Below, piece after piece: positions 10,582 through 15,070 of a DNA stretch of 64,000 bases. The notes under the pieces were generated by a model. It did no database searches, was not told where the DNA came from, and saw only the letters and a list, made by a program, of their open reading frames with translations. Source of the DNA: Rubrobacter aplysinae (GTDB lineage: Bacteria; Actinomycetota; Rubrobacteria; Rubrobacterales; Rubrobacteraceae); the NCBI RefSeq assembly GCF_001029505.1, contig NZ_LEKH01000010.1, positions 1 through 64,000 on the forward strand, in the 5' to 3' direction. A program made the position numbers and the translations under genes. Each line of letters starts with the position of its first letter. Position 1 is the stretch's first letter.

Positions 10582-11385
10582 CTACCCGGAGACCACCGGG
10601 CGGCACACTTTGCAGGGTCTATAACCGGCCCGTACCGCCTCCGCCGCCGAGCGGAAGCGCCGGCGGTTTCCGGGCTTTATCTTCCTGGCGCTGCGGCAGG
10701 TGGCGTAACAGAAGATCGCCGTGGACGGAGACCCGAGGTACGGGGAACCAGAGATCTCCGCGACCGGCACACCCTCCCTTTCGAGTAGCCCAACCTTCTC
10801 TCCGGCTCCGAAAGCGTAGTCGCCGGTGGCACCGTCGTTACGGACCACCCGGTGGCAGGGGATGACCAGCGGCACCGGGTTACGCGCCATCACCGAGCCG
10901 ACGGCGCGCGAGGCTCTGGGCGAGCCGGCCTCGCGCGCAACCCAGGCGTAGGGCCGCACCTCGCCCCGGGGGATGCCGCCCACCACCCCCAGCACCCGCT
11001 TCTGGAAGGCCGTAGTGCGCGAAAGATCCGTCGGGACTTCCGGGGTCTCTACCTTCTCCACCCGCTCCCCGGCTATCGCGGCGGCTACTCTGCGGGCCAG
11101 GATGCGTGTCCTCTCGTCCGTGCCCCAGGAGAGGAGCCTCCCGAAACGCTCTCTGTATAGCCGGGCGAACTCCTCTGGCGAGGCGGCCTTGCCAAGAGAG
11201 CGCACTCCCAGGTCGCTCGCCCCGACGTAGACCTCGCCCAGGGGCGAAGCGCACGAGAAGAGGCGGTCCGTTCCGGCCGCGAGCGCACGGTCTACCGTCT
11301 CCTCCGACTCTCTCGCCGGCATCTGGCGCGCCGCGGACTCTCCGAGCAGATCCTCGACCCATCTCTCGCCGTGTTCGTCATTCAT
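10582..11385 (-). CDS. ogt: O6-alkylguanine-DNA alkyltransferase fused to a C-terminal Ada-like zinc module
   Basis: A 267-residue protein. The central and C-terminal Ogt domain carries the acceptor-cysteine motif IPCHRVV (Cys177) and the helix-turn-helix segment ASRAVGSVMARNP. This suicide enzyme moves alkyl groups from O6-alkylguanine in DNA to its own cysteine. After it, residues about 216-263 contain four cysteines (226, 230, 258, 261) in C-x3-C and C-x2-C pairs with SAAEAVRAGYRPCKVCRP, like the Ada zinc domain. In E. coli Ada that domain is N-terminal, so the order here is reversed. The ATG at 11385 has GGGAG eight bases upstream. The gene follows an ECF sigma factor by 16 bases, so the two are probably co-transcribed. 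Confidence 0.85.
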   Translation of the reverse strand: MNDEHGERWVEDLLGESAARQMPARESEETVDRALAAGTDRLFSCASPLGEVYVGASDLGVRSLGKAASPEEFARLYRERFGRLLSWGTDERTRILARRVAAAIAGERVEKVETPEVPTDLSRTTAFQKRVLGVVGGIPRGEVRPYAWVAREAGSPRASRAVGSVMARNPVPLVIPCHRVVRNDGATGDYAFGAGEKVGLLEREGVPVAEISGSPYLGSPSTAIFCYATCRSARKIKPGNRRRFRSAAEAVRAGYRPCKVCRPVVSG

Positions 11386-11401
11386 GTATTCTCCCGGTTC
11401 T

Positions 11402-12055
11402 CTAGCGTGCCTGATCCGGCCCCGCTTCATCGGCTAGAAGCGTGCCCAGCCTTCCGATACCCCGGCGCACCAGGGTCTTACAGGTGTTCTCCGGCCATCC
11501 GGTCGCCGCCGCAACCCCGGCGTACGGCAGATCCTCCAGATAGCGGAGCGCCACCGCGACCCGCTGCCGCTCGGGGAGCTTCGCCAGGGCATCTAGCGCG
11601 TCCATCCAGGACTCTTCCCGAGCCTCATCCCGAGCTCCGCCGGGACTCGGTGCAATCTCGGGGACGGAGCGCTCCCGGTCACCCTCGCGCCAGACATTGC
11701 GCACCACATTCAGGGTGATGCGGTACAGCCAGGGACGCAGAGACAGCGACTCGATGCGCTCTTCCGGGTATCCGCCAAGCGCGGCGAAAGCCCTCGAGAA
11801 GGCCTCCTGCACCGCATCCTCGGCGGCCTCCGGGCCGCCCAGCAGGGCCCGGGAGTAGCGAAAGAGCTCGGCGCGGTGCCGCTCCACCAGCTCCCGCGGG
11901 GCGGCGGGGTCTCCCCCCGCCAGCCGCCGCGAGAGAGACTCGGGGCTGCCCGCTTCGATTCCCGCCTCGCCTCTCACCTCGCCTCCCGCATCTACATCCA
12001 CCCCCGTGTAACACGCCGGGCGCCCGGAAAGTTTCACCCCGCCCGCTCCACGCAT
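11402..12055 (-). CDS. ECF-type RNA polymerase sigma factor
   Basis: Up to 217 residues. Region 2 is seen as ELVERHRAELFRYSRALLGG and EDAVQEAFSRAF, and region 4 as LPERQRVAVALRYLEDL followed by a helix-turn-helix (GVAAATGWPENTCKTLVRRG). Regions 1 and 3 are absent, as usual for ECF sigmas. The start is unsure: the ATG at 12055 has no good binding site, and GTG codons at about 12001 or 11974 would remove unconserved residues. No anti-sigma factor follows; the alkyltransferase-zinc fusion occupies the place where one is usual. Confidence 0.82.
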   Translation of the reverse strand: MRGAGGVKLSGRPACYTGVDVDAGGEVRGEAGIEAGSPESLSRRLAGGDPAAPRELVERHRAELFRYSRALLGGPEAAEDAVQEAFSRAFAALGGYPEERIESLSLRPWLYRITLNVVRNVWREGDRERSVPEIAPSPGGARDEAREESWMDALDALAKLPERQRVAVALRYLEDLPYAGVAAATGWPENTCKTLVRRGIGRLGTLLADEAGPDQAR

Positions 12056-13394: not shown

Positions 13395-13780
13395 CTCGAC
13401 TCTCCTTCTCCTCGCTTCTCCAGGCTCCGACTAGCATCTCGGCTCCGATGCTCCGGCTGTACCGGTATTTTACCCTGGTTACGGCCCGTCTTCCGCGTTT
13501 TCGGGGATCTCTTTCCACCTCCCCGCGCCTTCCAGCCACGGCCTCCACTTCATCGCATCGCCTGTCTCGGAAGGGAGCCGGGCGATCGGAACGCGTTAAA
13601 GTCCCAGCCTCTAGGAGACGACAAAGAGACGACGAAGAGACGACAAGCTGGTTGCCGCCCTCACACGGCACGACGAGGACGGTCGTGGGGAGGGCGTACG
13701 GGATCAGCCCGCGCGAGATTTCATAAGAAGAATAAGAAGGCGAGTCGCCGCCAGTGATAATCCCGGCGAAGGGAGAGATA
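13395..13780. other. Intergenic region between the membrane peptide and the exported peptidase
   Basis: About 386 bases with divergent promoters expected at each end. The minus-strand half holds the strong ribosome site and a -10-like TAAAAT for the peptide gene. The plus-strand half contains purine-rich repeats (GACGACAAAGAGACGACGAAGAGACGAC, split here only by single bases) at about 13617-13646. No further gene is seen. Confidence 0.35.
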
Positions 13781-15070
13781 GTGGACCAGAATGCTCGGAG
13801 AATGGGATCGTCCCCCGGCCTAGAGGCCCCGGGAACCTTGGAGGCTGAAACCCCGGGGACCGGGTTTAGCCGCCGGGACTTTTTGAAGATGAGCAGCGCC
13901 GGGGTGGCGGGGGCAGCGCTGCTGGCGACGCCCGGGGTGGCCTCGGCCCGGACCCGGCCTTACGTGGACTTCAACGAGCATCGCGGGGGCCACTTCGACA
14001 AGGGCAGGAAGCGGGGAGTCACCGTCAGAAACGGCGTCCTGCGGCTCTCGAACCCGATGAAGAGGGGTAGCAGATACATCGGTATCCTCACCTCGCGGCC
14101 GGTTCGCACCTCCGTGGGCTTCGACACCATGATCCCGTCCTGGGAGGCAAGGACGCCGCCGGGGACCCGGATGCTGGTGCTGGTCAGGGTCCGCTACGGC
14201 GGCCGCTGGAGCTCGTGGATGAACCTCGGCAACTACTCCGCGGCGGGCCGCAGCCGCAGCGCGAGCCCGGCCTACGGAAACTGGCGCGTCGCCGTGGACA
14301 CCATACAGTCGCGGCACGGGGAGCGGGCCGGAGCGTATCAGTATCAGTTGCGTTTGATCTCGTCCCGCAAGAACCGCAGCCCCGTAGTGCGGCGCTTCTC
14401 GACGGCTTCTTCCCAGGTCACGAACCACGGCAGGTTCATAGATTCTGGGAACCTGAAGCGCGCCTATGGTGAGAGCCTCCCCGTACCCCGCTTCTCCCAG
14501 TACGACTACGACCGGGGCGCGGCCTGGTGCAGCCCGACCTCCATGAGCATGGTGCTGGGCTACTGGAGCCGCCGCACGAATCGCAGAGGCTGGAGGCGGA
14601 CCCCGCCCCAGGTCGCCCCGCGCGTGTACGACGCCGGAGCCCGCCTGTGGGGCAACTGGCCCTTCAACACCGGATTCGCCGGACATCTAGGGCTGGAGTC
14701 CAGCGTGACCCGCTTCAACTCGTTGCAACAGGTCGAACGCTGGATAGACAAGGGTATACCCGTGATCGCGAGCGTCGCCTGGGACAACCGCTACCGCGGC
14801 CGGAGGCTGAACAACGCCTCCATACCCCGCGCCACCTACGGGCACCTGATGGTGATCGTGGGCTTCACGAACAGAGGAGACGTGATCGTCAACGACCCGG
14901 CCGCCTCCCCGCGCCGGACGGTGCGCCGGGTCTACGACCGGGGCCAGTTCCGCCGGGCCTGGCTGAACAGCGATCGCTGGCTGGGCGGACGCTCGGACGG
15001 CGTCGTGTACCTCGTGCATCCCAGAGGCTGGACCACGCCATACAACTACGCCTCCAACGGTAGCTGGTAG
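13781..15070 (+). CDS. Tat-exported C39-like cysteine peptidase domain protein
   Basis: A 429-residue protein with a twin-arginine signal (SRRDFLKMSSAG at about 30-41, then a hydrophobic helix ending GVASA). The middle is a beta-rich region with Arg/Ser repeats. The C-terminal part matches the C39_2-like papain fold: SQYDYDRGAAWCSPTSMSM places the nucleophile at Cys250, YGHLMVIVGF the histidine at 355, and VNDPA the third residue near 372. It probably acts outside the membrane on peptides or the cell wall. I chose the GTG at 13781 because GGGAG lies seven bases upstream; the ATG at 13802 is also possible. Substrate unknown. Confidence 0.72.
   Translation: MDQNARRMGSSPGLEAPGTLEAETPGTGFSRRDFLKMSSAGVAGAALLATPGVASARTRPYVDFNEHRGGHFDKGRKRGVTVRNGVLRLSNPMKRGSRYIGILTSRPVRTSVGFDTMIPSWEARTPPGTRMLVLVRVRYGGRWSSWMNLGNYSAAGRSRSASPAYGNWRVAVDTIQSRHGERAGAYQYQLRLISSRKNRSPVVRRFSTASSQVTNHGRFIDSGNLKRAYGESLPVPRFSQYDYDRGAAWCSPTSMSMVLGYWSRRTNRRGWRRTPPQVAPRVYDAGARLWGNWPFNTGFAGHLGLESSVTRFNSLQQVERWIDKGIPVIASVAWDNRYRGRRLNNASIPRATYGHLMVIVGFTNRGDVIVNDPAASPRRTVRRVYDRGQFRRAWLNSDRWLGGRSDGVVYLVHPRGWTTPYNYASNGSW

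Follow-up and report, generated by a model that had tools for sequence, protein, structure and literature searches.

Why should the gene behind an ECF sigma factor, where an anti-sigma factor is usually found, encode a DNA alkyltransferase? The question is raised by two genes in the 64,000 nt of Rubrobacter aplysinae DNA analysed here (GCF_001029505.1, contig NZ_LEKH01000010.1, positions 1 to 64,000, forward strand; hereafter the window). A preliminary description, made from the sequence, had reported a sigma gene and, 16 nt behind it, the gene of an Ogt protein; this arrangement was confirmed on the minus strand, with the sigma gene ending at 11402 and the ATG of the Ogt gene at 11385 (Table 1). 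The pair seems to be a novel means of detecting DNA methylation damage and inducing its repair.

The mechanically called sigma ORF spans 11402-12055 (minus strand), and Pfam finds only Sigma70_r2 and Sigma70_r4_2 in it; having regions 2 and 4 alone, the product is an ECF (group IV sigma70) factor, and the sigma factor of a close relative has a fold matching SigW and CnrH. The ATG at 12055 lies upstream of a conserved promoter, so the gene probably starts at the GTG at 12001 instead, and since this codon is about 5 nt after the -10 element, the sigma mRNA is probably leaderless. In the mechanical Ogt ORF, the ATG at 11430 overlaps the sigma gene and the ATG at 11385 fits the relatives. The Ogt gene is present in a single copy in the genome.

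Table 1. Features of the sigma/alkyltransferase locus (window coordinates).
Feature	Position	Strand	Remarks
ECF sigma factor CDS	11402..12001	(-)	Pfam Sigma70_r2 and Sigma70_r4_2; probable GTG start, from promoter position
Ogt-Ada_Zn fusion protein, 267 aa	10582..11385	(-)	16 nt downstream of sigma stop
N-terminal helical leader, residues 1-46	11248..11385	(-)	ZAS anti-sigma domain here in divergent homologues
PF01035 O6-alkylguanine-DNA alkyltransferase domain	10768..11010	(-)	residues 126-206, E 1.1e-27
Acceptor Cys177 (PCHR) of PF01035 domain	10855-10857	(-)	86/86 aligned paired proteins
PF02805 Ada metal-binding module	10597..10752	(-)	residues 212-263; Cys226, Cys230, Cys258, Cys261
Putative autoregulatory ECF promoter, TGAAAC(-35)-N17-TGTTACA(-10)	12007..12036	(-)	conserved upstream of sigma in Rubrobacteraceae

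The downstream protein, hereafter Ogt-Ada, has the PF01035 domain with the PCHR acceptor cysteine that defines Ogt/AGT enzymes. Its C-terminal C-x3-C and C-x2-C pairs, earlier likened to the Ada zinc domain, belong to a genuine PF02805 match (E 4.6e-10, 39.8 bits against a cut-off of 23), and C226-x3-C230 and C258-x2-C261 are in register with E. coli N-Ada (PDB 1adn, E 1.7e-6). The tail begins at profile position 14, with the first 13 positions absent and the zinc site kept. By profile and register it has the four zinc cysteines of an Ada metal-binding domain, the first of them the predicted methyl acceptor, and each is retained in 78-79 of about 79 tail-bearing paired proteins. A Pfam scan found no AraC-type DNA-binding HTH in Ogt-Ada.

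The preliminary description had staked its idea on the co-occurrence of the two genes in relatives, and in this respect the idea survived strongly. Among 102 homologous loci, collected by querying with the Ogt protein alone, a sigma homologue lies directly upstream on the same strand in 78 of the 81 nonredundant loci with an Ada tail, from about six phyla; the remaining three (L054, L061, L084) are cut by contig ends, which leaves 78/78 testable loci with the sigma gene. Solo Ogts had a sigma neighbor in 0/9 cases, also when searched with an HMM of the paired sigmas. In most pairs the sigma stop and Ogt start overlap (mostly as ATGA) or abut. Hosts include Rubrobacteraceae, Nonomuraea, Thermobifida, Acidimicrobiia, Chloroflexota, Thermomicrobiales, Latescibacterota/Gemmatimonadota, and Rokubacteria. 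The Ada tail is missing from some sigma-paired Ogts (L022-L024, L099-L102). Three of these (L022, L023, L024; same phylum, other families) combine an ECF sigma with a short tail-less Ogt that groups with the solo Ogts in the tree, and are perhaps an independent sigma-Ogt pairing. A further candidate, L223, was rejected as a sigma-Ogt pair, its ECF sigma with a similar promoter adjoining a HEAT-repeat-like protein and not an Ogt.

A promoter motif common to pair-bearing relatives, for which a search had been proposed, was found as well. In Rubrobacteraceae the sigma gene is preceded by TGAAACtttcc...GTGTTrTA, and the site in the window is the only one in this genome with at most one mismatch to TGAAACTTT-N14-TGTTNTA. 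Across the family, sites within one mismatch occur once per genome and always at the operon, in 11/14 operon-bearing genomes and 0/9 others; in one operon-bearing genome (G022) the contig ends inside sigma. Across phyla, a site of the type TG[AC]AAC-N17-TGTTnTA precedes sigma in 44/86 paired loci under strict matching, 41 of them with exactly N17, against an expectation of 0.12 from mononucleotide shuffles; many other paired loci are near misses to the consensus. Nonomuraea genomes, although 10-14 Mb in size, have the exact site at most once, at the operon, and a pattern with the spacing one base off gave background counts only (an unplanned control). The simplest reading of these sequences is that of an autoregulatory ECF promoter; no second conserved box was seen in the promoter region. 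Linkage, promoter and the full set of four cysteines are found again in different phyla, which is more than chance.

The N-terminal segment of the partner is where a link to anti-sigma factors appears. Paired proteins have an extension ahead of the Ogt fold without counterpart in solved AGT/OGT chains; in a structure comparison of a sigma-Ogt model (L002), model residue 247 corresponds to residues 1-6 of those chains. Most paired proteins have a short helical leader here, with a motif resembling aPxgLxxxVxxR at its end. In a sigma-paired Ogt of Zixibacteria (L097) the extension is a zf-HC2 domain (26.6 bits against a Pfam cut-off of 22.2), and a Rokubacteria locus (L242), with a sigma gene upstream, encodes a complete zf-HC2-Ogt-Ada protein, its zf-HC2 above cut-off at 22.4 bits and its Ada tail sub-threshold at 17.0 bits with C-x3-C and C-x2-C kept. 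The motif H-x3-C-x2-C is also visible by eye in L057, L247, L255, and L099-L101, where Pfam matches are sub-threshold or absent in those scanned. In a quick tree (weak support, midpoint rooting), most H-x3-C-x2-C/zf-HC2 partners either branch at the base of the large paired clade or lie outside it. The window protein has no ZAS motif H-x3-C-x2-C (zf-HC2) in its sequence or by Pfam; its leader may be a reduced anti-sigma domain. The earlier idea that a repair protein has taken the usual anti-sigma position thus gains support from the ZAS domains on divergent partners.

Promoter-type sites also point to repair genes in some genomes. In a Ktedonobacterales genome (G070), allowing up to one mismatch gives four sites, which lie ahead of the operon, a second Ogt-Ada without sigma, AlkA, and a small ORF. 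Elsewhere such a site precedes an alkyltransferase-like gene (G096) and, in an Acidimicrobiia genome (G082), a PF09859 'damaged DNA' oxygenase. Where the operon is absent, genomes yield about as many hits to the forward as to the reversed pattern, so single sites elsewhere are candidates only. Rubrobacteraceae showed no regulon other than the operon itself, and a larger regulon in the R. aplysinae genome was rejected, its other sites within one mismatch matching the reversed-pattern control (7 against 5). Behind a sigma-type promoter, two Ktedonobacterales loci (L132 in G070, L216 in G083) share a conserved ORF of 80-98 aa with no convincing Pfam match, a putative regulon member. In four Nonomuraea species (L164-L167), one and the same SDR gene has a sigma-like site, TGCAACCG-N-CGGTGTT, in front of it; the -10 of this site overlaps an inverted repeat, CGGTGTTC..GAACACCG, possibly the operator of a repressor. 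These extra sites, all before one SDR gene, were left out of the regulon because the -10 lies within that possible operator.

Within Rubrobacteraceae, the pair and the classical AraC-type Ada almost exclude each other. Among 36 genomes, 16 have the pair only, 14 classical Ada only, 1 both, and 5 neither (Fisher p 3.9e-5, phylogeny ignored and absence calls in drafts being soft). The pair is thus present in 17 of the 36; full-length Ada_Zn, at about 100 bits and mostly in long frames, is present in 15, and one classical frame checked by Pfam reads Ada_Zn-AraC HTH-AlkA. The sole genome with both systems (G035) is a draft with 6% contamination. Genera g3 and g12 each contain both types, so the two interchange.

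These findings make it probable, in our judgment, that the locus is a sigma-factor-based adaptive response to DNA alkylation, with Ogt-Ada as repair enzyme, sensor, and a sigma-holding partner released or activated by alkylation. From what is known of its families, Ogt-Ada would irreversibly take methyl groups onto Cys177 (from O6-alkylguanine) and Cys226 (from methylphosphotriesters). Its N-terminal segment (zf-HC2/ZAS in deep lineages, a two-helix leader here) would hold the co-translated ECF sigma; alkylation of Ogt-Ada, or its contact with damaged DNA, would then release or activate sigma, which would transcribe its own operon from TG[AC]AAC-N17-TGTTnTA and, in certain lineages, further genes of alkylation repair. 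Either Cys177 or Cys226 is plausible as the switch, since methylation of the PCHR cysteine activates Cada2 of Caulobacter and E. coli Ada (EcAda) is switched by Cys38 methylation (PMC10957082). We count in favor the linkage, the coupled stop and start, the ZAS partners, the promoter, the regulon, the near exclusion of Ada, and the Cada2 precedent; against it stand the missing ZAS motif in the window protein, its leader of only 46 residues, and the lack of a Rubrobacteraceae regulon beyond the operon. An AlphaFold model of sigma fused through its TAG stop to Ogt (L002; mean pLDDT 88.7, pTM 0.70) has sigma closed and anti-sigma-bound-like, as in SigW-RsiW and CnrH-CnrY; it was rejected as docking evidence, because sigma alone folds equally closed and the closed form therefore says nothing on docking. 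Of the alternative adaptive response proposed in the preliminary description, the linkage, the promoter, the candidate repair regulon in some genomes, and the near exclusion of Ada stand as observed; sigma-Ogt-Ada binding, the direction of control (an anti-sigma role and not a co-activating one), and the alkylation switch with its cysteine are what we infer. Most likely, Ogt-Ada would be an anti-sigma factor releasing sigma upon its own alkylation.

How does such a system compare with known ones? A 2024 survey compared three regulators, EcAda, Cada2, and AdaA, all transcription factors with their own DNA-binding region (PMC10957082). E. coli Ada/AdaA-AlkA shares with the present locus an Ada zinc domain and alkyltransferase in one protein or regulon, methyl-accepting cysteines, and autoregulation; however, E. 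coli-type Ada has Ada_Zn at its N-terminus followed by the AraC HTH, whereas here the module is C-terminal, there is no such HTH, and the ECF sigma is separate. Cada2 likewise has a PF01035 Ogt domain as likely sensor in an adaptive-response regulator, but with its own HTH region (B-box/RLHD motif) and no Ada zinc domain; the window protein has an Ada tail, a sigma partner, and no HTH by Pfam scan. ZAS anti-sigma factors (RsiW, ChrR, RsrA type) resemble Ogt-Ada in their place after the sigma gene and in the zf-HC2 of divergent partners, yet the window protein has no zinc ligands there, and its sensor would be a suicidal DNA-repair enzyme in place of a redox or membrane module. The bare linkage of an ECF sigma with an adjoining methyltransferase is on record for one ECF group, ECF122, listed with 6-O-methylguanine DNA methyltransferase neighbors and without anti-sigma factor or mechanism (Casas-Pastor et al. 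2021, reviewed in PMC8999054). The window pair has this neighbor, although assignment to the group itself goes by a group-specific HMM, and the ECF122 entry of the review makes no mention of the Ada tail, ZAS fusions, promoter, or regulon (PMC8999054). The literature searched contained no published sigma-based adaptive response, nor, the primary ECF classification paper aside, the Ada tail, ZAS fusions, promoter, regulon, or Ada exclusion. We lean slightly toward a bolder reading, that the suicidal alkyltransferase-Ada is itself the anti-sigma factor, each repair event being counted as one released sigma, in a fourth class of adaptive response that spans several phyla (Actinomycetota, Chloroflexota, Thermomicrobiota, Latescibacterota/Gemmatimonadota, Rokubacteria, Zixibacteria) and, in Rubrobacteraceae, takes the place of AraC-type Ada. 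If true, irreversible protein alkylation would control a sigma factor, a different logic, which would provide a mechanism for an ECF group that has none on record and make sense of genomes without classical Ada. The promoter is defined, there are two candidate switch cysteines, and hosts are available in culture (Thermobifida, Nonomuraea, Thermogemmatispora), so the system is directly testable.

The foremost alternative, unlikely though to be taken seriously, makes Ogt-Ada a co-activator: sigma would be present at a low level and unsequestered, and methylated Ogt-Ada would bind the promoter or RNA polymerase with sigma and stimulate transcription. EcAda and Cada2 are activators (PMC10957082), the equivalent of Ada Cys38 and its surroundings are conserved, and the window protein is without ZAS cysteines; yet Ogt-Ada has no AraC-type HTH, the promoter offers no second conserved box, and the ZAS domains on divergent partners point to sequestration. 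It is more doubtful still that the alkyltransferase is a mere target of a sigma sensing some other stress, general or oxidative, with a partner that does not regulate it. Sigma does appear to target its own operon, and ECF122 is reviewed, in its entry, as being without a cognate anti-sigma factor (PMC8999054), but this leaves aside the fixed gene order, the tight coupling with no other regulator, the ZAS fusions, and the alkylation-repair targets in other genomes. Finally, the alternative raised at the outset, that the four cysteines form a generic zinc- or DNA-binding tail without sensing role and incidental to the pairing, is very improbable: some sigma-paired Ogts are tail-less, but the tail is a PF02805 domain above cut-off whose methyl-accepting cysteine is kept and lines up with that of E. 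coli Ada, and the pairing holds in every testable locus across phyla.

Around the sigma/Ogt-Ada pair, the window also has a glutaminase gene (PF04960, 7013-8005, plus strand) and an asparaginase gene (PF00710, 15975-17177, plus strand), about 8 kb apart. Between them, 13754-15070 (plus strand) encodes a protein predicted to be secreted; it has a C39-like peptidase domain, and its match to a TAT signal is borderline.
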